A DNA stretch of 64,000 nucleotides from assembly GCF_023698535.1 (NCBI RefSeq), contig NZ_JALJCL010000003.1, positions 186,001-250,000 on the forward strand. The letters run 5' to 3'. Below are positions 5,660 to 63,800 of the stretch, piece by piece (position 1 is the first letter of the stretch; each line of letters begins with the position of its first letter). The stretch is from Halorientalis regularis. Lineage in GTDB: Archaea; Halobacteriota; Halobacteria; Halobacteriales; Haloarculaceae. A model generated the notes under the pieces. The model did not search any database. It was not told where the DNA came from and saw nothing but the letters and a program-made list of their open reading frames with translations. Position numbers and translations under genes: made by a program.

Positions 5660-6450
5660 CCCTCGACCACCCCCTTGTCGCGGAGGAATTCGGCCAGCTG
5701 TCCGGCCGTCTCCTCCGCGTCGCCGCTCCAGACCGTCGCGTCGCCCTCGGACTCGGGCTCGTACATGTCGGTCTGGGCCAGCGAGCTCTCGAGATCGTCG
5801 GCGGAGAGGCCGACATCGTCGAGGCTCTTCACGTCGAGCGGCTTGCTCTGGGCCTGGCGGATGCCGCGCAGGCTCGCGTAGCGGGGCTCGTTGATCCCGG
5901 ACTGGATCGTCAGCACGGCGGGACTCTCGACTTCGGTGAGCTCCTCGACGCCGCCCTCCAGTTCGCGGTGGACGTTCGCGACGCCACCCTCGATGTCGAG
6001 GTCGAGCTGGTTGACGACGGCGGCCCACTCGAAGCCGATCTTTTCGGCCAGTGTGACGCCCGTCGCGCCGTTGGACTCGTCACCGGCCTGGACGCCGGTC
6101 AGGACGAGGTCGGGGTCTTCCTCCTCGACGACACCCGCGAGCAGTTCGGCCTTGGTTTCGACGTCGAGCTTGCCCGCACTCTCGATGTCGTCGTCCCACA
6201 CGCGGACCGCGCGGTCGGCACCCTTGGCCAGGGCCATCCGGATGGTCTCCTCGGCGCGCTCCGGACCGATGGTCGCGGTGACGACCTCCACGTCGTCCTC
6301 GGCCTCGCTGATCTGGACGGCTTCCTCGACGGCGTAGTCGTCCCATTCGTTGAGGTCGTATTCGAGATACTGCTCGGCGATATCGCCGCCGGAGATCTCG
6401 AACTCGTCCTCGACTTCCGCCACCTCCTTTACCGTTACGAGAATCTTCAT
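5656..6450 (-). CDS. etfB: Electron transfer flavoprotein beta subunit
   Basis: A 264-residue EtfB, the AMP-binding partner of EtfA. It opens with MKILVTVKEV, the standard EtfB start, and carries the nucleotide-domain features DDYAVEEAVQI, RMALAKGADRAVRV, GVQAGDESNGATG and the closing signature region ending in GINEPRYASLRGIRQAQSKP, which contacts EtfA. The ATG at 6450 is chosen over a GTG two codons upstream because homologues begin MKIL. A TATA-like sequence lies about 30 bases upstream. Together with the microgene and etfA it forms one operon; no associated dehydrogenase or FixC/FixX-like gene is adjacent. Confidence 0.95.
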   Translation of the reverse strand: MKILVTVKEVAEVEDEFEISGGDIAEQYLEYDLNEWDDYAVEEAVQISEAEDDVEVVTATIGPERAEETIRMALAKGADRAVRVWDDDIESAGKLDVETKAELLAGVVEEEDPDLVLTGVQAGDESNGATGVTLAEKIGFEWAAVVNQLDLDIEGGVANVHRELEGGVEELTEVESPAVLTIQSGINEPRYASLRGIRQAQSKPLDVKSLDDVGLSADDLESSLAQTDMYEPESEGDATVWSGDAEETAGQLAEFLRDKGVVEG

Positions 6451-6477
6451 ACTCACCCGAACCTGGGGATTACTCCC

Positions 6478-6488
6478 CGTTAAACGTT
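6478..6488 (-). promoter_or_regulatory. TATA-like promoter of etfB
   Basis: The minus strand reads CGTTTAACGG about 30 bases before the etfB ATG, the usual place for a haloarchaeal TATA box serving a transcript with a very short leader. Assigned by position and AT content alone. Confidence 0.45.
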
Positions 6489-6535
6489 TCCGAACGGCGG
6501 AACCGCAGACAACTGTTCATCCCTCGACCGGACGG

Positions 6536-6560
6536 TAAAAGCCGAGGGTTTCGCCCCCTC
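6536..6560 (-). terminator. Stem-loop plus T-run after the membrane regulator gene
   Basis: On the minus strand the sequence reads GAGGG, a seven-base loop, CCCTC, then GGCTTTTA. The stem begins right at the stop codon of the upstream gene (6562-6560), and the T-run follows within a few bases. This suits a terminator separating that gene from the etf operon. Confidence 0.5.
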
Positions 6561-7759
6561 TATCCACCGTTTTCCGGCTCCTCGCCGTTCGTGTCCGTGA
6601 TGTCCTCGTCGGGGAACGAGATGAGGTTCTCCCGGCCGATCCGGAGTTTGTCGATGCGCCCCTCGTCGTCCATCGAGGAGAGCAACTGGGACACCTTCGC
6701 GTTCGACCAGTCGGTCTCTTTGACGATGTTCGCCTGTTTCATGCGCCCGCCGTTCCGTTCGAGCAGGCGCTCGATCCGTTCCTCGTCGCTCAGCAGTTCC
6801 TCGTCGATCTCGTCGTCGCCAGCCTCGGCGGCCGCGGCCGCCGTCCCGCCGTCGGTCGTCGACGCGGCCGTCTCGGCCGCTGCGGGCGGGCCGTCACCGT
6901 CGCCGCCACCGTCACCATCGTCGGTCGGCGCGGCCGGCGACGGCACGTCGAAGTCGCGTGTCGCGAGCAGATACGCGATCACGACGGCGACGAACAACGC
7001 CGCGATGCCGACGAGCAACAGCGGCGGGATACCGCCGGACTGCGGCCCGGGTGTGCTGTCGTTGGACGGCGTGGCGTTCCCGCTTCGCCGGTAGACGACC
7101 GACGGCTGGCTGACCTCGAAAGTCCCCTCCTGGTCACCTTCCCAGCGGAGCGACGCGTTCGTCACCGAGTATCCCGGTGGAGAGGCACTGTACAGGTCGT
7201 ACGCCCGCGGTGGAACGATGGTCAGCGTCTGGTTCGCACCCAGCGTCGGGAACCACGTCCCGTCGAGCGAGAGGAACACGTCGTCGACGTAGAGGTAGGT
7301 TCCGGACTTACGAGCGAACCCGGTCCAGGTGAACTCGAGCACGAGTTGCCCGGTATCACCCGTGAGGGAACTCCGTCGGGCCACATCGGTGATGTCCATC
7401 GGCCGACCGGTCGCGACGCTGGCGCGCTCGCTCGCCGTCCGTGCCGTCCTGATCGTGTCGAGCCCCGCGCCGCTCTCGAACTCCCGTGCGACCGATCCGA
7501 AAGCCGCCCGCTTTGCCTCGGTGTCGACCGTGTAGTTCCGTCTGATCGTCCACACCGCGTCACCGTCTGACCTGATCCCGACGTGGAACGTCGTGTCGGT
7601 CCGGTTGATTTCCGTGTCCTGTGTCTGGAGGGAGACGCCGCTGGAGACGGCTGGCTGGTGAGCCTCGGCCCCGTCGGCGAGCGCCGGGGCAGCCACCGGA
7701 CCTGCGGTCAGGAGGAGGGCGAGTGAGGCGAGCAGGGCGGCATGTGCCCGCGTCAACAT
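6560..7759 (-). CDS. Membrane-anchored winged-helix transcription regulator
   Basis: A 399-residue one-component regulator. An N-terminal signal sequence (residues 1-28) leads to an extracellular beta-rich domain of about 220 residues, a Ser/Pro/Gly spacer, a single membrane helix (PPLLLVGIAALFVAVVIAYL, about residues 255-275), an acidic linker rich in Gly/Asp/Ala, and a C-terminal winged-helix domain (LSDEERIERLLERNGGRMKQ through RIGRENLISF). This fits haloarchaeal proteins with DUF7345/DUF7343-type domains. It probably senses an envelope signal and acts on DNA near the membrane. It is divergent from the secreted-protein/pilin pair at 7951-9705, its likeliest target (inference). ATG 7759 is used because it directly begins the signal peptide. 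Confidence 0.75.
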   Translation of the reverse strand: MLTRAHAALLASLALLLTAGPVAAPALADGAEAHQPAVSSGVSLQTQDTEINRTDTTFHVGIRSDGDAVWTIRRNYTVDTEAKRAAFGSVAREFESGAGLDTIRTARTASERASVATGRPMDITDVARRSSLTGDTGQLVLEFTWTGFARKSGTYLYVDDVFLSLDGTWFPTLGANQTLTIVPPRAYDLYSASPPGYSVTNASLRWEGDQEGTFEVSQPSVVYRRSGNATPSNDSTPGPQSGGIPPLLLVGIAALFVAVVIAYLLATRDFDVPSPAAPTDDGDGGGDGDGPPAAAETAASTTDGGTAAAAAEAGDDEIDEELLSDEERIERLLERNGGRMKQANIVKETDWSNAKVSQLLSSMDDEGRIDKLRIGRENLISFPDEDITDTNGEEPENGG

Positions 7760-53438: not shown

Positions 53439-55157
53439 TTACTCGGGGCCCTGCCAGCGAGCAACCTCACCAGTGGCACCGTCTACACTCGCGTACACAA
53501 TGACCTGGTCGCCATCCGGCTCTACGGCTGTCTCGAGAATCGTACCAGCACCGATCGGCTCGTCGCTGGTCAGCGAACCGACGCGGTCGGTGAACAGGCC
53601 TGGTGCCTCCTGTGGTTGTGCGACGAGTGTCTTGGCGCCCGTGTCTGCGACGACTTCGATCGTGAGTGACCCGAGATCGCCAGCATCGGGGGACTCGTAA
53701 CGAAACGACAGCGCGTCTGCCGGCACTGCCCGGCTGGCCGCTGTCTCTGACAGCTCGTCTGTGGGGACAGACAAAGTCGTGAGTTTACCGACCGCACCCT
53801 CGCCGTTGACCGCGAAGACGGTCACCGAGTCCCCGTCCGGATCGACTTGGACCGCAACACTGTCACCGGCGCTGACGGACCGCTGCTGTGGCTGGATTTC
53901 GGTGGATCCCCCCGAATCAGCCTCTATCCGGAGCGCTGCCGCGTCGGTATCTTCGGTGATTCTTACCCAGAGTTCACCGCGCCCCTGGCCACGTAGCGGC
54001 TCGTACTGGAACGTCAGCGCCTCTGGCGACACCAGCTCCGCAGCCGCCGTCTGCGAGAGCTCTCGCTCCGCCGGGTCTGCAGTGAGTTGTTCGACGTCGT
54101 AGGTCCCAGTTGCGGTGATGGGGTTGTCGTTCACCTCGACCGATCTCGAGCTATCGATGGCCGCGGTCCCGAAGGAGGTCTCGATCATCTCTCGTCTGTC
54201 TTCACCGGTATCCTCCGCTGCAAGGGCGAACTGTGACTCGAAAGTTTCCCGCCTCGCGTCGAAGTCCACCGCTGCGACCACATGCTCACCGGAGCGCGGT
54301 CTGAACTGCGGATCAGGGGTGAGCTGTACGTCCCCGAAGAACTGATCACCTGTTGCTGGCCCGAGCTGGCCGACCACGAGATCACCGGTTCCGGCCTGTT
54401 CGAGCAATTCTGCAATGCTTTCATCGGTCTCGAAGACCCGGGAACGGGTCCCGTCTCCGGCGGCAATCGTCTGGTCGAGTTGGCTGGCGTCCGGCCCGAT
54501 TATTACTGTCTCGTCTGTGATTGCTACCGCAGGTGGATCATTCACTGAATCGGGAACGTCGACGGGCTCGTATCGGTCGTACCCACGGTCCGTGCTGGTT
54601 TGTTCGTAGGCAACACCGAACGTCTCGTCTGTGGGCTCGATCAATCGTTCATCTAGCTGGTCGGTTGCGAAGGATCCCTCGGCGATTACGGTCTCATTGG
54701 TGACAGTGACCTCGTTCACCGTCGAGTCGGACGTCGGCGTAGGATTCACGGCCTGGGCGAGTCCGGCAAACGAGAGCGACAATTGACCAACGCCGACAGC
54801 CGTCCCGCCTATCACGAGCGGATACAGAACCAGCGGATCATCGACGGACGGATCCGAAAGGCCACCAGAGCCACCGACGGTGTCGTCGGGGAAATTGTCC
54901 AGATTAGCGTAGGCAAAAAATATCCCACTTTGGTCTGTCGTCAACCACTGGCCATAGGGCAAGTCGCCCGCCGGATCGAACGTGTCCGTCGACGAGTCGT
55001 CTGTCGGAGTGTCGTCGGTCGGACTGTCGGTTACCTCTTGATCGGTACCGCCGCTGCAACCGGCCAGTGCTGCCGTCAGGCCGCCCATCCCGAGCAGGAA
55101 TCGGCGTCGACTCTTACTCGTCTGTGTCGCACTGTCGTCGTTGTCGTTAGCGGGCAT
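53439..55157 (-). CDS. Tat lipoprotein with duplicated C-terminal domain
   Basis: A 572-residue secreted lipoprotein. Twin-arginine RRRFLLGMGG (17-26) leads to the lipobox LAGC with the modified Cys34. A Thr/Asp/Ser spacer (38-60) follows. The body (about 61-400) is rich in Asp/Thr/Gly beta strands. Two C-terminal repeats, about residues 390-475 and 478-572, both run from ALTFQYE/ALSFRYE to VDPDGDSVTVFA/VEPDGDQVIVYA. The same unit ends the other lipoprotein (55885-57264). A binding or envelope structural role is likely; nothing enzymatic is visible. It is followed by a convergent spacer; upstream is the RDD gene. Confidence 0.7.
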   Translation of the reverse strand: MPANDNDDSATQTSKSRRRFLLGMGGLTAALAGCSGGTDQEVTDSPTDDTPTDDSSTDTFDPAGDLPYGQWLTTDQSGIFFAYANLDNFPDDTVGGSGGLSDPSVDDPLVLYPLVIGGTAVGVGQLSLSFAGLAQAVNPTPTSDSTVNEVTVTNETVIAEGSFATDQLDERLIEPTDETFGVAYEQTSTDRGYDRYEPVDVPDSVNDPPAVAITDETVIIGPDASQLDQTIAAGDGTRSRVFETDESIAELLEQAGTGDLVVGQLGPATGDQFFGDVQLTPDPQFRPRSGEHVVAAVDFDARRETFESQFALAAEDTGEDRREMIETSFGTAAIDSSRSVEVNDNPITATGTYDVEQLTADPAERELSQTAAAELVSPEALTFQYEPLRGQGRGELWVRITEDTDAAALRIEADSGGSTEIQPQQRSVSAGDSVAVQVDPDGDSVTVFAVNGEGAVGKLTTLSVPTDELSETAASRAVPADALSFRYESPDAGDLGSLTIEVVADTGAKTLVAQPQEAPGLFTDRVGSLTSDEPIGAGTILETAVEPDGDQVIVYASVDGATGEVARWQGPE

Positions 55158-55884: not shown

Positions 55885-57264
55885 TCAGGGGAACGTCTCC
55901 CGGGCTATCGTCCCCGTGGTGCCGTCGACGGTGGCGGTGACGGCGACTTCGTCCCCCTCGGGGTCGATGTAGACGTAGAAATAGAGCCCCTCCTGGGGTG
56001 TCGTCGTCGAGGCTTCGTATCCCGATTCGAGCGCCCGCATCGTCACCTTGTCCACTGCCATGTCGGCGGTGAGTCCGACCTTGACCTTGCGGCCGCCGTC
56101 GTAGCTGAACTCGATCCCGTCTTCGGGCACGGCCTCGGTGACTGCGGGTGGGGGATCGCCCGACGGCACTTCGTTGCCCGGAGTTGTGGGCGTCGTTGGA
56201 GGCTGGCTGAAATCGACATCGAACACGTCCCCGGTGTACGACCCGGTCGCTGAGAGTCGCCTCTCACCGCCCGTGAACGATGTATCGGCGCTCGACGTAC
56301 CCAGTTTGGACTTCAGGCGGTCTCTCCCCGATCCATCGAGTCCGCCGTCCTGAACGGCCAGTTCCGCAGTAACCTCGTTCTCGTCCGGCGCGAAGTTCAC
56401 GGTGCCGAATACGTGATCACGGTCGGTCAGCAAGTCGTTCGCGATCAGACTGTCCGTGTCACCGAACATATAGTCGCTCGGGTCGGCCGACCCCTTCCAC
56501 CCGGCAACGAGGTCGCCCCGCCCTCCGTCGTCGACCAGCCACTCGAAGGTCCCGTCCTCGTCGACGGCGAGGCTCCCGTCGCCGCGCTGGGCGTCGACGG
56601 CCGCTTCCAACTCCTCGCGCGTGTCCGCGACCACGACCGCCGACCCACTGAGGCCCGTGACGCCGTCGAAATCGGGGGTGGTCGGCCTATAGATCGTGAA
56701 TCCACGGTAGTCGCCGCTGGACTCGAAGGCGATCTGGCCGATGAGGTCGTCGGTCCCCTCCCGGAGACTTTCGTCGGCCTCGCGCTCGTCGATCTCGCCG
56801 ACGCCGACCATGACTCCGTCGGCCACGAACAGTTCGTCGACGATCTCCGCCGGCTCTTCCGGATCGACGAGGTAGCCGAGGCCGCCGGCAGCGATCCCCA
56901 GTGCCGCACCGGCGATCAGTCGGCCCCCGGCCTGGAGCGGCCAGCCGAGCAGGGGATCGTCGATCTCGTCCAGTCCCGAGAGGTTCGGAACGAACTCGGC
57001 GGCTTCGCCGCCGTCTCGCGACGGGAGCATGAGTGGGAGCAGTCGGTCGGCTCGCGGGGAGTCCCGCGTGATGCGAAAGTCGATATATCCGACCAGGAGT
57101 CCGTCATCGCTCGGTGGGATCCAGTCGGTGTAGTTCGGATAGTCACCGCCGCCGAGGCCGAAACAGCCGCCGAGCGCGGCCGTCGCTGCTGTGGCACCGA
57201 GGCCCAGGAACCGGCGGCGACCACACGAGGATGCGACTGACGGGGCGTCGGAGGAGTGAGTCAT
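55885..57264 (-). CDS. Tat lipoprotein, paralogue of the upstream-sharing envelope protein
   Basis: A 459-residue lipoprotein with Tat signal GRRRFLGLGATAATAALGG and lipobox LGGC, Cys34. A hydrophobic patch near residues 112-135 (LIAGAALGIAAGGLGYLV) is unusual for an exported protein. The body includes YIDFRITRDSPRADRLLPLM and VVVADTREELEAAVDAQRGD. The C-terminal unit GIEFSYDGGRKVKVG to DPEGDEVAVTATVDGTTG matches the repeated unit in the neighbouring lipoprotein at 53439-55157. Function unknown. Confidence 0.7.
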   Translation of the reverse strand: MTHSSDAPSVASSCGRRRFLGLGATAATAALGGCFGLGGGDYPNYTDWIPPSDDGLLVGYIDFRITRDSPRADRLLPLMLPSRDGGEAAEFVPNLSGLDEIDDPLLGWPLQAGGRLIAGAALGIAAGGLGYLVDPEEPAEIVDELFVADGVMVGVGEIDEREADESLREGTDDLIGQIAFESSGDYRGFTIYRPTTPDFDGVTGLSGSAVVVADTREELEAAVDAQRGDGSLAVDEDGTFEWLVDDGGRGDLVAGWKGSADPSDYMFGDTDSLIANDLLTDRDHVFGTVNFAPDENEVTAELAVQDGGLDGSGRDRLKSKLGTSSADTSFTGGERRLSATGSYTGDVFDVDFSQPPTTPTTPGNEVPSGDPPPAVTEAVPEDGIEFSYDGGRKVKVGLTADMAVDKVTMRALESGYEASTTTPQEGLYFYVYIDPEGDEVAVTATVDGTTGTIARETFP

Positions 57265-57320: not shown

Positions 57321-58985
57321 TCATTCGGGTTCGTGTTCGGCCCCGAGATCGGGAATGTGGACGGTGACAGTGCTGTCGTCGGACTCGCGGTCTCCGAAGG
57401 ACAGTCGGCCGCCGAGGCGGGTCACGCCCCAGGAGACGAGCCAGAGGCCGACACCCGTGCCGTGCATACCTTCGGTTTCCTCGCCTTCGAGCAGGACGGC
57501 CCGCTCGTGGTCGGGGATTCCCGGACCGGAATCACGCACGTCGAGCGTCCCGCCGTCGTCGCTAGGTCGGACGGCGACGACCACCGGCTCGTCCCCGTCG
57601 ATGTGTTCCATCGAGTTCTCGACCAGTTCTTCGAGGACGAGCCGGACGATCTCCGGGTCGGACCGTATCTCGACGGGGTCGTCCGGACGGTCGACGGTGA
57701 CCCGCTCGCCGTCGGTTCGATCAGCGACCGTCTCGGCCACAGCCGACAGGTCACACCGCTCCCGTCGCGGCGTCGGATCGGTCATCAGCCGTTCGGAGCG
57801 CTCGATGGCCGACGAGAGGTCGACGAGGCCGTACGCGAGCGTCTCGATCCGGTCGAAGTATCGTTCCGTCTCGGCGTCGCCGAGGTCCTCGTCCCGGATC
57901 GTCTCGGCGAATCCGCGGATCGCGTCGAGGTCGTTCCGGAGGTTGTGACGCGTGATCCGGTTGAGCACCTGGAGCCGCTGTTCGCGGGTCTTCCGGTCGG
58001 TCACGTCCCGGAACCGGTAGGCGTACCCGAGGACGGTCCCGGTTCCGTCCTCGATGGCGCTCCGGTCGACGACGAACTCCCGACGACCGTCCGCAGTCCG
58101 GATCGTGAGCGGGGCCGACAGGTCGGTCCCCTCGTCGACGCCCGCGACCGTGTCCAGCGAGCGCTCCCGTAGTCGCGTTCGGTCGATCGCGAACACCTCG
58201 GCGGCGGCCTCGTTCAGGTCGAGCAGGCGGTTCGCGCGGTCGACTACGGCCACGGGCGAGCCCACCGTATCGAGCACCGCCTCCCGCGCGAGGTGGCCAG
58301 CGGTCGGCCCCGCTTCGAACAGGCCCGCCGTGAGTTCCATCGCCGCGTAGAGGCCGATCACGAGACAGAGCTGCAGGAACGCCGTCCGTAGCGTCGCGTC
58401 TGGTGTGAACAAGCGACCGAAGCCTACCGTCAGCGGCAGGAACGTGATACCCAGGCCTGCGACGGTGAGGACGCTCGCACGCGGGAGCGACAGGTCGTCG
58501 TACGCCGTCGCCGACCGGGCGATCAGGACGACCCCGAGCAGCCCGAGCGAGAACACCGCGATCTGCAGGACGAAGGTCGTCAGGTACGAGACGCGTCCGA
58601 CTGTTCCCAGTGGCACGCGCCCGATCTCGTGGACCCACGTGACGGCCGTGCTACCGATGGCGAGACAGCCGAGCGCGAGCAGCCCTGCCCAGCGCCCAGC
58701 GGTCAGCGCTGGTCCCCGACCGGTGTACTCGAAGACGAACCCGATCCAGAGCACGGACGTGAACGCGTAGCCACCGAGCAGGAGTGCCTCGATGGCTACC
58801 GTCGACCCGACCGGCGCGAGCCCGGTCTGCCACAGCGAGATCGTGACTGCAAGCGTGCCCAGCAGACAGACGAGGATCGCGAACGGGACCGCCCCCGGCC
58901 GATCGCGGTGCCAGGCGGTTCGGACGATCGCCGCAGCGCAGACGCCCGCGACCGCGACGCCACCGAGTATCCAGCCGGCGTCCAT
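57321..58985 (-). CDS. Sensor histidine kinase, coupled to a degenerate kinase
   Basis: A 554-residue kinase with about seven membrane helices (residues 5-222), a PAS domain (about 235-330), His347 in RITRHNLRNDLDAIRG, N457 (ELVENSMEHID) and DSGPGIP from residue 485, and the GTGVGLWLVSWGV lid. ATG 58985 overlaps the stop codon of the upstream degenerate kinase (TGATG), so the two are made together. The PAS-to-kinase segment VTDRKTREQRLQVLNRITRH aligns with the partner's VTDRRTREEKLTLLSRFVAD. Confidence 0.85.
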   Translation of the reverse strand: MDAGWILGGVAVAGVCAAAIVRTAWHRDRPGAVPFAILVCLLGTLAVTISLWQTGLAPVGSTVAIEALLLGGYAFTSVLWIGFVFEYTGRGPALTAGRWAGLLALGCLAIGSTAVTWVHEIGRVPLGTVGRVSYLTTFVLQIAVFSLGLLGVVLIARSATAYDDLSLPRASVLTVAGLGITFLPLTVGFGRLFTPDATLRTAFLQLCLVIGLYAAMELTAGLFEAGPTAGHLAREAVLDTVGSPVAVVDRANRLLDLNEAAAEVFAIDRTRLRERSLDTVAGVDEGTDLSAPLTIRTADGRREFVVDRSAIEDGTGTVLGYAYRFRDVTDRKTREQRLQVLNRITRHNLRNDLDAIRGFAETIRDEDLGDAETERYFDRIETLAYGLVDLSSAIERSERLMTDPTPRRERCDLSAVAETVADRTDGERVTVDRPDDPVEIRSDPEIVRLVLEELVENSMEHIDGDEPVVVAVRPSDDGGTLDVRDSGPGIPDHERAVLLEGEETEGMHGTGVGLWLVSWGVTRLGGRLSFGDRESDDSTVTVHIPDLGAEHEPE

Positions 58986-60622
58986 CAGCAGTCACCTCCC
59001 GAACCCTCCGGGGACGGGAACTCGGCCGTCACTCGCCGCTCGTCCCCGTCCCGCGTCACCGAGACTGACCCGCCGGCTCCCTCGACCGCGAGACGAATGA
59101 CTGGAATCGTCACCTCGTCGCTCCGGGCCGCATCCGACCGCTCTCCGGACGCTGCCGGGTCGGCACTGACCCGGACCGTCGGCGGTTCCACCGTGGCCCT
59201 GATCGCCACGCGGCCGACTGTGCGCTCGAGAGCGTCCTCGACGATAAGTTTCACCACCGTCTCGAACAGTCCGGGCGGGAGATCGGACGAGAGCGGTTCG
59301 TCCGGCATCTCGACGGCAGGGTCGGGAACGTCGCCGTTCCCTCGCCCGTCTGCGGCCCGCTCGACGGCCTCGGGTATCCGAGGTCGAAGGTCGGTTCCGC
59401 TGGCGGTTCCCGCGCCATCGGCGATGGCCTGTTCGATCTCCCGGGCATGCGCGACCAGAGTCGTGAGGTCTGTCGTTCGGGTCCAGACGCGGTCGGCCAC
59501 TACGGTCTCGTCGGCCGTCTCGGTTCCGTCGGTGACCGCGGCGGCGTCCGCGGCCACGTCGGCCATCCGGTCGTCGACGACGTCCGCGACGAACCGGGAG
59601 AGCAACGTCAGCTTCTCCTCTCTGGTCCGGCGGTCAGTGACGTCGGTACAGAGCAGGACCGTCCCGAACGACCGGCCGCGCCGATCGGTTACCGGCGATC
59701 CAGTCACCTCGACGGTCCTGCCACCGGCATCGAGCCGAATCGGCTCCTGTGAGGCGACGACCTCGTCCGGATCAGCCCGTTGGTCCAGGACTGCGGATAC
59801 CGGGCGGCCGGTGGCCTTCTCGGTTGGGACGCCGAACAGGCGTTCAGCGGCCGGATTCAGGTCCTGGACCGTCCCCGTTCGGTCCGCGACGACCACGCCG
59901 TCAGCCAACTCGTCCACGACGCGGTCACGGCCGGCGACGCGCGCGGCCGGGAGCGTCTCGAAGATCGGGTAGCGCCGTACCGGGAGGAGGAAGGAGCCGC
60001 CGGCGAGCGCGATCGATGCGGGGTACAACACGGGACGGCCGAACACCTGCGCGACGTGGACGGCCGACAGGAGGACGACGACCCCGCCGGATAACACCAG
60101 TGGCTCCCGAACGGGGAAGGCGTTCGCGCCGACCGACGCCCACAGTAACAGGTAGATCCCGACCGTCGCCAGAAATCCCACGAGGAGATAGCCGACAGTG
60201 AGTGCGTCGACAAGCGCGACCGATGGCCCGGCGGTCGCGGCCCGGACCGCGACGGTGACGCTCCCCAGCGAGAGCAGTCCCACACCCGTCGCGACGACCC
60301 GGATGGACCGGGGGTCGCGGCCGGTGTACCTGAACGCGAACAGCGACCAGAAGCCCCCAGCGACGACACTGGTCGCAGCACCGAGGACGACCCAGAGCAG
60401 GTCGGTCGACTCCCGACCGGTCAGGTCGCGGGCGACTGCCGCTCCGATCGGACCGGCCACGAGGAGGTGAACGAGACTTCCGAGGAGCAGGACCAGTGCG
60501 ACGCCCAGAAGCGAGCGTGCAGTCGCCTCGTCGCGTTGCGGCCACAGCGACGCCGCGAGCGCGCCGGCGACCACGGCTGCCAGGATTCCGACCGCGAGGC
60601 GACCGACGGGAGCGACGCTCAT
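58985..60622 (-). CDS. Degenerate histidine-kinase-like sensor (pseudokinase)
   Basis: A 545-residue protein with the same architecture as its neighbour: about seven membrane helices (residues 8-225), a PAS domain (about 230-325; VVVADRTGTVQDLNPAAERL), then a helical region. The phosphoacceptor histidine is absent: the dimerisation-helix equivalent is KLTLLSRFVADVVDDRMADV. The N-box asparagine is lost (VETVVKL-IVEDALERTVGR region), and no DxGxG or GxGLGL box is seen. It cannot be a normal kinase. It may sense a signal and modulate the coupled active kinase, perhaps by heterodimerisation. The start at 60622 MSVAPVGRLAVG begins the first helix. Confidence 0.75.
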   Translation of the reverse strand: MSVAPVGRLAVGILAAVVAGALAASLWPQRDEATARSLLGVALVLLLGSLVHLLVAGPIGAAVARDLTGRESTDLLWVVLGAATSVVAGGFWSLFAFRYTGRDPRSIRVVATGVGLLSLGSVTVAVRAATAGPSVALVDALTVGYLLVGFLATVGIYLLLWASVGANAFPVREPLVLSGGVVVLLSAVHVAQVFGRPVLYPASIALAGGSFLLPVRRYPIFETLPAARVAGRDRVVDELADGVVVADRTGTVQDLNPAAERLFGVPTEKATGRPVSAVLDQRADPDEVVASQEPIRLDAGGRTVEVTGSPVTDRRGRSFGTVLLCTDVTDRRTREEKLTLLSRFVADVVDDRMADVAADAAAVTDGTETADETVVADRVWTRTTDLTTLVAHAREIEQAIADGAGTASGTDLRPRIPEAVERAADGRGNGDVPDPAVEMPDEPLSSDLPPGLFETVVKLIVEDALERTVGRVAIRATVEPPTVRVSADPAASGERSDAARSDEVTIPVIRLAVEGAGGSVSVTRDGDERRVTAEFPSPEGSGGDC

Positions 60623-60694: not shown

Positions 60695-61123
60695 TCAATC
60701 GTCCGCCGGCGCACGAGCGGGTACGCGCCCCCGGGCGTGTGTGCCGTCAGTGTCGACGGCCAGTTCGAATCCCTCTTCCCCGAACGTGACGGAAAAAGTA
60801 TCGATCACCGCGCGGTAACGCTTGTGGTGGTGGCCGTCGTCGTGATCGATGTGATATTCGGTCTCCACGAGACCCAGTTCGGCCAGTTCGTTGAGACGAC
60901 GGAACGCCGTTGCCCGGGAGACGCCGGCCTCGTCCGCGACCGCCCCGCCGCTGCGCGGGCGGTCGAGGATCGCCTCCAGCACCGCCCGCGTGTACTCGTC
61001 GCCCAGGAGTTCGAGCAGTTCGTCGGGGTTGGTGCCGACCGTCCCTGCGGTGTCCGCATCGTCGGTTTCCCGTTCGCTCCGTACGCCATCGGTCGTTCCG
61101 TACCGCCGCGTGTCTCCGGTCAT
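60695..61123 (-). CDS. Winged-helix transcriptional regulator
   Basis: A 142-residue ArsR-like or haloarchaeal winged-helix regulator. The HTH runs from DELLELLGDEYTRAVLEAIL to VSRATAFRRLNELAELGLVE (about residues 35-85), and a wing follows (EYHIDHDDGHHHKRYRAVID); the His-rich wing DDGHHHKR may bind metal. ATG 61123 is chosen; the preceding frame is Arg-rich. It is upstream of and same-strand with the kinase pair, and divergent from the response regulator. Its targets may be either. Confidence 0.75.
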   Translation of the reverse strand: MTGDTRRYGTTDGVRSERETDDADTAGTVGTNPDELLELLGDEYTRAVLEAILDRPRSGGAVADEAGVSRATAFRRLNELAELGLVETEYHIDHDDGHHHKRYRAVIDTFSVTFGEEGFELAVDTDGTHARGRVPARAPADD

Positions 61124-61272
61124 CGTATTTCGACCGAAACACGCCATCGTGCTATGGATCGATGCTAGCTGTACAGACGACCGCTCGCCGAACCATCTAG
61201 TAATACAGACGAAGTCGCTGGCGGGCCGAACGACAGGCGTTATGACCGTGACCGAACAATACAGAGACCGAG

Positions 61273-61863
61273 ATGGGTGACGGGACCGACGAAGCCGAGG
61301 AAGACCGCCCGCGGGCGCTGGTCGTCGACGACGAGCGAGAGGTGGCCGACGCGTACGCACTCCGGTTGCGGGGCCTCTGTGAGGTCGAGACGGCCTACGG
61401 CGGCGAGGACGCACTGCGAGCCGTCGAGGACCACGAGTTCGACGTGGTACTGCTGGATCGCCATATGCCGGGGCTGTCGGGCGACGAGGTTCTCGAACGC
61501 CTCGACGAAGGCGACTTCGACGGTCGGGTGATCATGGTCACCGCGATCGATCCGGGGTTCGACGTCCTCGATATGCCCTTCGACGACTACCTCTGCAAGC
61601 CGGTCGACCGCGAGGACGTGCGGGCGGCGGTTACGCATCAGTGTACGGTGCTGGGCTACGAGGTCCTCGGCGACTACTTCGGCGTCGAGTCCAAGCGGCG
61701 GGTCGTCGAGGCCGAACTCTCGGCCGAGGAACGGGCGTCCCACGAGGAGTTCGGGGAACTGCAAGCGACCGCCGAGCGGCTGGAGCGGCGCGCCAGACGC
61801 CTGCTCGGCGACGCGGCGGACGCGCTCGACGACTTCGATGCCATCGGCCGCGAGAGCGAGTGA
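61273..61863 (+). CDS. HalX-type response regulator
   Basis: A 196-residue receiver-HalX protein. Acidic pocket D19/D20 (VVDDERE), phosphoacceptor D62 (LLDRHMPGLSG), switch threonine in MVTAIDP (T90) and K109 (DYLCKPVDRED). After about residue 125 comes the helical HalX domain (YFGVESKRRVVEAELSAEER), found almost only in haloarchaea. No DNA-binding domain. It probably receives phosphate from one of the kinases here; the nearest active ones are at 57321 and 62766. Confidence 0.88.
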   Translation: MGDGTDEAEEDRPRALVVDDEREVADAYALRLRGLCEVETAYGGEDALRAVEDHEFDVVLLDRHMPGLSGDEVLERLDEGDFDGRVIMVTAIDPGFDVLDMPFDDYLCKPVDREDVRAAVTHQCTVLGYEVLGDYFGVESKRRVVEAELSAEERASHEEFGELQATAERLERRARRLLGDAADALDDFDAIGRESE

Positions 61864-61941: not shown

Positions 61942-62598
61942 ATGGACGTCGACCAGTTCAAATCCGAACACGCACCGACCGACTCCGACGACCGGTTCCA
62001 GCTCGAGAACAGCTACACGCTCGACGCGGCCGTCGACGGCTCGCTACTGGCCAAGGCCGGCGCGATGATCGCCTACACGGGCGATCTCTCCTTCACTGGG
62101 CAGGCCTCGGCCGAGGGCGGCATCACCGGCTTCCTCAAGGAGGCCGCGACCGGCGAGGGGACGCCCGTGATGACCGTCGAGGGGCAGGGCCACGTCTACC
62201 TGGCCGACCGGGAGAAGAAAGTCCAGATCCTCGAACTCGACGCCGGGGAGTCGGTCACGGTCAACGGCGAGGACGTACTGGCGTTCGATCCGGAACTCGA
62301 CTACGAGATCAGTAGCATCGACAGCCTCGCCGGCTCGTTCGCGGGTGGGTTTACGAACGTCTACCTCGAAGGTCCCGGCTACGTGGCGCTGACGACTCAC
62401 GGCGACCCAGTCGTGATGGAGCCACCGGTCACGACCGACCCGAGCGCGACCGTCGCCTGGAGCGGAACCACGCCCGACGTGTCGGTCAACACCAACCTCT
62501 CGGACATGATCGGCCAGGAGTCCGGCGAGCGCTTCCAGATGGAGTTCACCGGGACCGGCGGCTTCGTCGTCGTTCAGCCGTACGAGGAACACGTCTGA
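61942..62598 (+). CDS. AIM24 family protein
   Basis: A 218-residue AIM24/TIGR00266-like beta-sandwich protein, with the family stretches VDGSLLAKAGAMIAYTGDLS and GEGTPVMTVEGQGHVYLADR and EGPGYVALTTHGDPVVM; the C-terminus is beta-rich. AIM24 proteins occur in archaea and bacteria; the yeast member is needed for mitochondrial inner-membrane organisation. The archaeal role is unknown. Located between a response regulator and a kinase, it may be a co-regulated membrane-related factor. Confidence 0.85.
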   Translation: MDVDQFKSEHAPTDSDDRFQLENSYTLDAAVDGSLLAKAGAMIAYTGDLSFTGQASAEGGITGFLKEAATGEGTPVMTVEGQGHVYLADREKKVQILELDAGESVTVNGEDVLAFDPELDYEISSIDSLAGSFAGGFTNVYLEGPGYVALTTHGDPVVMEPPVTTDPSATVAWSGTTPDVSVNTNLSDMIGQESGERFQMEFTGTGGFVVVQPYEEHV

Positions 62599-62709: not shown

Positions 62710-62769
62710 ATGCTCACCGAGACATCGACCGCCGCGTCGTCGTCCGCGACGAGGGACGCGAACGCATGA
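62710..62769 (+). CDS. Possible 19-residue leader ORF before the kinase
   Basis: A frame beginning MLTETSTAASSSATRDANA and stopping at 62767-62769, where the TGA overlaps the kinase ATG as ATGA. It may be a coupling leader peptide, as seen in the etf operon, or a chance frame. There is no other support. Confidence 0.25.
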   Translation: MLTETSTAASSSATRDANA

Positions 62770-63800
62770 CCGGGGACGGAGCGGACGCGGACCCGATCCG
62801 GATCGAGCGGTGGCCCGATCCCGCCTGCCGGTTCGGTTTCGAGGACGGGACAGCGCTCCTCCGCGCCGTGAACGACCCGTTCGAGGCGACCTTCGGGCCG
62901 GTGACGGCCGGCCAACCGGTGGCCGCCGCGATGGCCGACCTCGGCGTCACCCCCGTGTCGACCGACGGTTTCGAGGCGGTCCTGTCCAGCGATGGCCCCG
63001 TCCGAGTTCGGGCCGACGGGGACGCCGCTGCAGACAGCGGGGCGAAGCGATACCTCGCGCGTGTCGTTCCGTCAGATCCGGACGGCGAGGCGGTTCTTGC
63101 GTTCGTCCCGCGCCCCGGAGAGGGGGACGAGGGGTCGGTTGACATCGACGTGGACCACGTGGCGAGCGTGGTCAGTCACGACCTCCGGAACCCGCTCGAC
63201 GTGGCGACGGCCCGGCTCCGGGCCGGTCGCGAGACGGGCGACGACGACCATTTCGAGCGGGTCGCCGCCGCACACGACCGCATGGAACGGATCATCCGGG
63301 ACGTGCTGACGCTGGCTCGCGGCCGGGACGTGGTCGATCCCGACGAGACGGTCGCCCTCGACGTGGTCGCCGAGGACGCGTGGGAGACCGTCGAGACCGC
63401 AGACGCGACCCTCACCGTCGACGGCTCGCTCCCGACGACGACCGCCGACGCCGACCGCGTTGGCCGCCTCTTCGAGAACCTGTTCCGGAATGCGGTCGAA
63501 CACGGGTCGACGGGTCCCGACGAGGCCACCGAATCGACCGATGCCGTCACCGTGACGGTCGGTCCGCTGGGGGGAACCCGGACCGGTTTCTATGTCGAAG
63601 ACGACGGCCCCGGGATCCCCGAGACCGACCGCGAGCGTGTCTTCGAGCCGGGATACAGCACCGACGACCACGGCACTGGGCTAGGGCTGGCCATCGTCGC
63701 CCGCATCGCCGCCCTCCACGGCTGGTCGATCGCGGTCGGCGAGTCCACGTCGGGCGGCGTCCGATTCGAGGTGACCGGGATCGAGCCGGAATCGCCGTGA
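62766..63800 (+). CDS. Soluble histidine kinase
   Basis: A 344-residue cytosolic kinase. The first 115 residues form a variable sensor-like domain without membrane helices or recognised family. His138 lies in VVSHDLRNPLDVATAR, N242 in NLFRNAVEHG, DDGPGIP at 279-285 and GTGLGLAIVARIAALHGW, so the core is intact. It resembles the C-terminal part of the kinase at 20631 (SHDLRNPINVADG, ESHGW). Being soluble, it needs an intracellular signal or partner, perhaps the PAS-like protein that follows 40 bases later. Confidence 0.85.
   Translation: MTGDGADADPIRIERWPDPACRFGFEDGTALLRAVNDPFEATFGPVTAGQPVAAAMADLGVTPVSTDGFEAVLSSDGPVRVRADGDAAADSGAKRYLARVVPSDPDGEAVLAFVPRPGEGDEGSVDIDVDHVASVVSHDLRNPLDVATARLRAGRETGDDDHFERVAAAHDRMERIIRDVLTLARGRDVVDPDETVALDVVAEDAWETVETADATLTVDGSLPTTTADADRVGRLFENLFRNAVEHGSTGPDEATESTDAVTVTVGPLGGTRTGFYVEDDGPGIPETDRERVFEPGYSTDDHGTGLGLAIVARIAALHGWSIAVGESTSGGVRFEVTGIEPESP

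Follow-up and report, generated by a model that had tools for sequence, protein, structure and literature searches.

Why should a haloarchaeon keep, immediately ahead of an active histidine kinase, a second kinase-like protein of full length that lacks the catalytic residues? The question is raised by two genes, deg and act, in a stretch of 64,000 nucleotides from Halorientalis regularis (contig NZ_JALJCL010000003.1, positions 186,001 to 250,000; hereafter the window). The answer depends on what deg has lost and retained, on whether it is inherited and selected together with act, and on how the pair compares with kinases known to be controlled by a degenerate relative.

Layout, domains and catalytic residues of the two proteins

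Both open reading frames and the TGATG overlap between them were confirmed on the minus strand (Table 1). The stop codon TGA of deg (58987-58985) and the start codon ATG of act (58985-58983) have one base in common, and the products are two overlapping proteins instead of the "translationally fused" ones announced in a preliminary description of the locus. Among 29 clean pairs from different genomes (see below), act starts at -4 relative to the end of the deg stop in 25, at -1 in three and at -7 in one; the overlap is retained while its form varies. An anti-Shine-Dalgarno match of at least five bases is located just before the act start, inside deg, in 24 of the 29 pairs, as compared to 6.1% of random deg positions, and a Shine-Dalgarno sequence at deg's own start is found in 3 of the 29. 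Judged by this difference, translation of the two genes looks coupled, with act apparently well provided, and equal amounts are not implied. The near-equal production previously deduced from the TGATG overlap does not follow, because act has a strong Shine-Dalgarno sequence of its own and deg usually has none.

Table 1. Positions in the window of the pair, its domains and neighbouring regulatory genes.
Feature	Position	Strand	Basis
act, 554-aa active-type histidine kinase (7TM, PAS, HisKA, HATPase_c)	57321..58985	-	ORF, Pfam, AlphaFold
act HATPase_c, residues 443-546	57348..57659	-	Pfam 57.8 bits
act DHp, residues 329-402, phosphoacceptor His347	57780..58001	-	alignment, AlphaFold
TGATG stop/start overlap	58983..58987	-	sequence
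deg, 545-aa pseudokinase (7TM, PAS, DHp-like, CA-like)	58985..60622	-	ORF, Pfam, alignment, AlphaFold
Shine-Dalgarno GGAGGTGA for act, within deg 3' end	58992..58999	-	sequence, anti-Shine-Dalgarno match
deg CA-like domain, residues 404-541, without N-, D- and G-box residues	59000..59413	-	ThkA fold match
deg DHp-like two-helix region, residues 329-402, Asp347 at phosphoacceptor position	59417..59638	-	alignment, AlphaFold
deg PAS domain, residues 237-332	59627..59914	-	PAS_4 46.1 bits
deg seven-helix membrane region, residues 3-217	59972..60616	-	AlphaFold helices; HisKA_7TM 17.7 bits
Winged-helix regulator ORF, directly upstream of deg, true start probably further in	60695..61414	-	
REC-HalX response regulator, divergent, candidate output	61273..61863	+	Response_reg 67.1 bits, HalX 52.5 bits
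HK2, another histidine kinase near HalX, rival cognate kinase	62766..63800	+	

In a profile-profile comparison the deg and act families aligned over 523 columns with 20% identity, and deg is thus a full-length homologue of the kinase. AlphaFold models of the two proteins, calculated from 29-sequence alignments (mean pLDDT 81.1 for deg and 79.1 for act), agree with each other and bear out the common seven-helix/PAS/helical layout proposed earlier; the domain order in both is seven N-terminal helices, a PAS domain, two long DHp-type helices and an alpha/beta C-terminal domain. The family HisKA_7TM (PF16927) is weak in the window proteins, with 17.7 bits for deg and 23.6 bits for act, both below the cut-off of 28.6; among the 29 members on each side, 27 deg and 21 act proteins match it at E<=0.01. 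Pfam detects HATPase_c in all 29 act members, and HisKA reaches 23.5 bits in the window act (cut-off 26.9). For the window deg there was no match to HisKA or HATPase_c at E<=1, and no receiver family was among the Pfam matches of the 29 deg and 29 act proteins. Only one of the 29 deg members, from another genome, has a Pfam HATPase_c match (34.6 bits). This protein (L167:5786-7480, plus strand), in which the His is replaced by Gly, possibly represents an intermediate of CA domain decay, its score being as expected for a relic on the same degenerative path as the other deg proteins.

In the predicted structure, residues 404-541 of deg superimpose on the CA domain of ThkA with Z 15.3 and an rmsd of 2.6 over 124 residues (VIA-align). 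The deg model also matches DivL (4q20, Z 14.2) and, from its complex with GacS, RetS (7n0e, Z 14.3), and histidine kinases are at the top of its Foldseek matches. According to the model the CA fold is retained, and deg has lost the catalytic chemistry, not the domain. The preliminary description had considered that structure prediction might reveal a complete ATP-binding domain hidden in deg. The fold is indeed predicted; however, the nucleotide-binding residues are absent, so that there is no complete ATP site.

The alignment of residues and the profile comparison place Asp347 of deg at the position of His347 of act. Across the 29 clean pairs, the phosphoacceptor His is present in every act and in no deg, where Glu (13), Asp (9) or Gly (7) is found instead. 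The N-box Asn occurs in 29/29 act and 0/29 deg proteins (19 deg have Asp), and the glycines of the GxGxG lid in 29/29 act but, at two positions, in only two and one of the 29 deg. As the D-box Asp with its first Gly and both GxG glycines are likewise present in 29/29 act, these counts agree with the earlier claim that the downstream protein has every catalytic box, and that the upstream one lacks the phosphoacceptor His, the N-box Asn and the ATP-lid glycines. deg does not possess the features of a histidine kinase enzyme, namely the DHp His and an HATPase_c domain with N, D and G boxes. With a DHp-CA fold kept, according to the prediction, and the catalytic residues lost, it belongs to the pseudo-histidine kinases. 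The His is conserved in 59 of 60 other 7TM-type kinases, which were picked by score among all loci, perhaps with some few on bacterial contigs; the single exception, L160, is the deg of another pair.

The DHp helices carry further signatures. At His+4, a position tied to phosphatase activity, Asn is found in 29/29 act proteins; deg has Asn in 0/29 and Thr in 2/29, which makes a phosphatase role of deg appear unlikely. The DHp region of deg has a signature of its own, consisting of an Arg (29/29) and a Glu (28/29) in helix 2 and of Arg or Gln at His+5 (28/29). The helix-2 Arg position is occupied by Arg in 52 of the 60 other 7TM-type kinases, and the same position in act is acidic in 17 of 29 (Glu 15, Asp 2) and not acidic in the remaining 12. 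As far as the alignment indicates, the change of charge is in the DHp of act, opposite an unchanged Arg of deg. This complementary contrast may fit a deg-act heterodimer, or else reflect an altered regulator specificity.

Distribution, joint inheritance and selection

A first scan of 97 relatives found 13 deg loci including the window, and a class scan of 391 genomes together with named GTDB contigs raised the number to 31. In all 30 readable loci of these 31, act is located directly downstream of deg on the same strand. Two loci do not enter the 29-pair counts: L177, which is truncated by a contig end, and L060. The latter (5959-7635, plus strand) is a deg copy in a MAG; its frame is broken in the C-terminal part and the DHp has a gap at the His site, due to either an assembly error or real decay. 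L200, likewise outside all of the 29-pair counts, is a more divergent pair; its genes overlap too, its deg has Asp at the His site and the layout is that of the other pairs. In this deg (5754-7706, minus strand), which is adjoined by an active kinase, a short acidic repeat separates the DHp from the CA-like part. L201, checked together with L200, is an ordinary kinase.

Among the 391 class genomes, deg scores at least 346 bits in 26, including one truncated at the end of its contig (the score below these is 232), and act at least 618 bits in 25 (next score 419.5). The latter are identical to the 25 genomes with a full-length deg, and the two genes are always adjacent. These counts are lower bounds, because only three candidates per genome were scored and the L200 pair, with 224.6 bits, fell below the score gap, which was consequently rejected as a strict family border. 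Co-conservation of the pair in other genomes had been suggested as a check, and a deg found alone as evidence against a joint role; act is beside deg in 25/25 full-length class matches, and no solitary deg was found at high score. Named hosts include Halorientalis, Halorhabdus, Salinarchaeum, Halovenus, Natronococcus, Natronorubrum, Haloarchaeobius and Halovivax. The deg-act pair is an old haloarchaeal unit. In two relatives of the window's genus (G006 and G007), the whole pair is quite different, with deg only 31% and 28% identical, and these divergent versions suggest that the pair may have been transferred as one unit. A search for a plasmid home of the pair gave no match at E<=1e-20 in a plasmid collection.

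The distance matrices of deg and act are correlated with r 0.934 (maximum of 2000 permutations, 0.362), and 17 of 26 tree splits are common to both proteins; some of this agreement is common species history. In a tree calculated by a quick method, deg forms one group with support 100 and act one group with support 98. The branch parting both from 26 other kinases has a support of only 67, too low to establish an origin of deg and act by a single tandem duplication.

In 31 within-group comparisons (Nei-Gojobori), dN/dS ranged from 0.26 to 0.49 for deg and from 0.16 to 0.31 for act; these values are approximate, since open frames were used without their first 30 aligned codons, domain borders were set by fixed fractions, and some dS values are near 1. 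Neutral evolution of deg, which would have spoken against a function, is therefore not what is observed, and the expected purifying selection is. Relaxation is mostly strongest in the C-terminal third of deg, where dN/dS reaches 0.66, and a part of this third may be a passenger. Decay of the whole protein was rejected on account of dN/dS together with the constant substitution pattern.

Possible roles of deg and a candidate output

That the pair is kept across many species suggests that deg functions as a regulatory partner of act and is not a gene in decay. A reasonably probable arrangement, and the one favoured here, is a two-subunit membrane receptor kinase in which the pseudokinase deg controls act, probably via a DHp heterodimer. 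In this complex act would be the catalytic subunit, which autophosphorylates on His347 and hands the phosphate to a response regulator. deg would contribute the same membrane, PAS and DHp modules plus a CA-shaped, nucleotide-blind C-terminal domain, and could neither phosphorylate nor be phosphorylated on that His. We infer that control runs from deg to act through physical contact: deg would most likely pair with act through the DHp, PAS and 7TM helices and set its kinase/phosphatase balance. Whether deg would then be an activator or an inhibitor would follow from the mode, cis or trans, in which act phosphorylates, and homodimers of each protein may form as well. The preliminary description had proposed deg as a sensor subunit acting on its partner. 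Of this proposal, the retention of deg under purifying selection, its strict co-conservation with the active partner and their co-evolution are borne out; an action on act is probable, and a special role of deg in sensing is no more than possible, since both proteins carry 7TM and PAS regions.

Alternatively, deg could be an inhibitor resembling RetS that traps act in heterodimers unable to autophosphorylate (if this occurs in trans), until a signal frees act to homodimerise. The fold match to RetS in its complex with GacS would be in line with such a function, as would the complete motifs of act, which could work alone, and its stronger translation signal, which allows an excess of act; yet this explanation is unlikely, because act above the cut-off never occurs without deg (25/25 adjacent), as better suits an obligate subunit, and the genes of RetS and GacS are separate. 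It is quite unlikely that deg and act form an obligate heterodimer with inherent half-of-sites asymmetry, in which the acidic residue of 22 of 29 deg, at the place of the phospho-His, permanently mimics the phosphorylated half and act is the sole live half of a dimer resembling a hemiphosphorylated kinase; this would apply to a part of the pairs only, as 7 of 29 deg carry Gly there. deg might also be an independent receptor that uses its PAS/CA-like domain to signal to a different protein, expression from one operon being its only link to act. In favour of this, the sensor half of deg is complete and its DHp has conserved residues of its own, but exclusive co-inheritance with act and matching trees render it very unlikely, and no other neighbour looked for equals the constancy of act beside deg. 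Finally, it is extremely improbable that deg is no more than a duplicate in decay, retained solely because it provides the start of translation for act: deg does evolve more rapidly than its partner, with most of the difference in the C-terminal third, and the MAG copy L060 is broken, but deg is of full length in 29/29 clean pairs, dN/dS is below 0.5 in all 31 comparisons, the His site shows few substitution classes, and act has its own Shine-Dalgarno sequence in 24/29.

If deg and act form a two-subunit receptor kinase, the best candidate for its output is the REC-HalX regulator, with HK2 as a rival or co-input. A REC-HalX gene is located within 3 kb of the pair at 19 of 29 loci and a winged-helix homologue just upstream of deg, on the same strand, at 16 of 29, compared to 2 and 0, respectively, of 38 haloarchaeal control loci hand-picked from 68 lower-scoring ones (L066-L133). 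A HalX orthologue well apart from its paralogues is present in 26/26 genomes with the pair, as opposed to 9 of 30 pairless relatives in a chosen sample (at E<=1e-55). However, HK2 is found near HalX in all nine pairless loci that have HalX, and HalX is thus kept as a candidate and not claimed as the proven output. In two of these nine (L191 and L193), active-type 7TM kinases are located near HalX and the winged-helix gene. HK2 and REC-HalX possibly represent a core haloarchaeal two-component system, and in Halorientalis loci an AIM24-family gene (61942-62598, plus strand) lies between them. On the other side of the pair lie two mutually homologous genes (53439-55157 and 55885-57264, both minus strand), whose products have a twin-arginine-like start and match no Pfam family above the cut-off. 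The second of them comes immediately after act, and its homologue is found behind the pair at several loci of Halorientalis, Halorhabdus and Halovivax.

Comparison with known systems

To our knowledge, pseudo-histidine kinases have been recognised in a few bacterial and plant cases, and few signals or partners of archaeal kinases are known. The locus offers a natural, operon-bound pseudokinase/kinase pair in archaea with about 30 comparable natural variants. With it, the tuning of a live protomer by a dead one could be tested directly, as could the question of whether obligate heterodimers exist among histidine kinases. DivL and CckA, which have a role in cell-cycle polarity, are not known to be encoded by an overlapping gene pair. 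According to the available parts of two articles (PMC4211667, PMC12189002), DivL of Caulobacter is a pseudo-histidine kinase that acts on CckA and controls a separate active kinase, as deg would in the arrangement favoured here; the DHp-CA match to 4q20 adds to this likeness. Unlike DivL, deg has a 7TM sensor region, and deg and act have one architecture. The second likeness, which includes the fold match to 7n0e, is with RetS-GacS of Pseudomonas, where a kinase-like protein heterodimerises with another and controls it (accessible text of PMC12189002); heterodimers are also mentioned for the Pseudomonas system in an excerpt of PMC6944256. RetS and GacS are both hybrid kinases, whereas deg and act match no receiver family.

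Among archaea, a 2018 census lists proteins with HisKA and no HATPase, primarily in Archaeoglobi and Methanomicrobia (PMC5847659, in part). These resemble deg in being kinase-like without a recognisable ATPase domain. They keep the His, however, in contrast to deg, which lacks it in 29/29 cases, retains a predicted CA fold and has an active kinase as its partner. The pair is not described in the available portions of PMC5847659, PMC9491836, PMC12189002 and PMC6944256, and no title or abstract start found in the open-licence literature names a haloarchaeal histidine pseudokinase. A dead kinase combined with an active paralogue is also seen in Corynebacterium, where, as far as the available part of PMC9491836 reports, the pseudokinase ChrS boosts signalling via HrrS. 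That ChrS variant arose from a frameshift evolved in the laboratory, whereas deg represents a widespread natural state.
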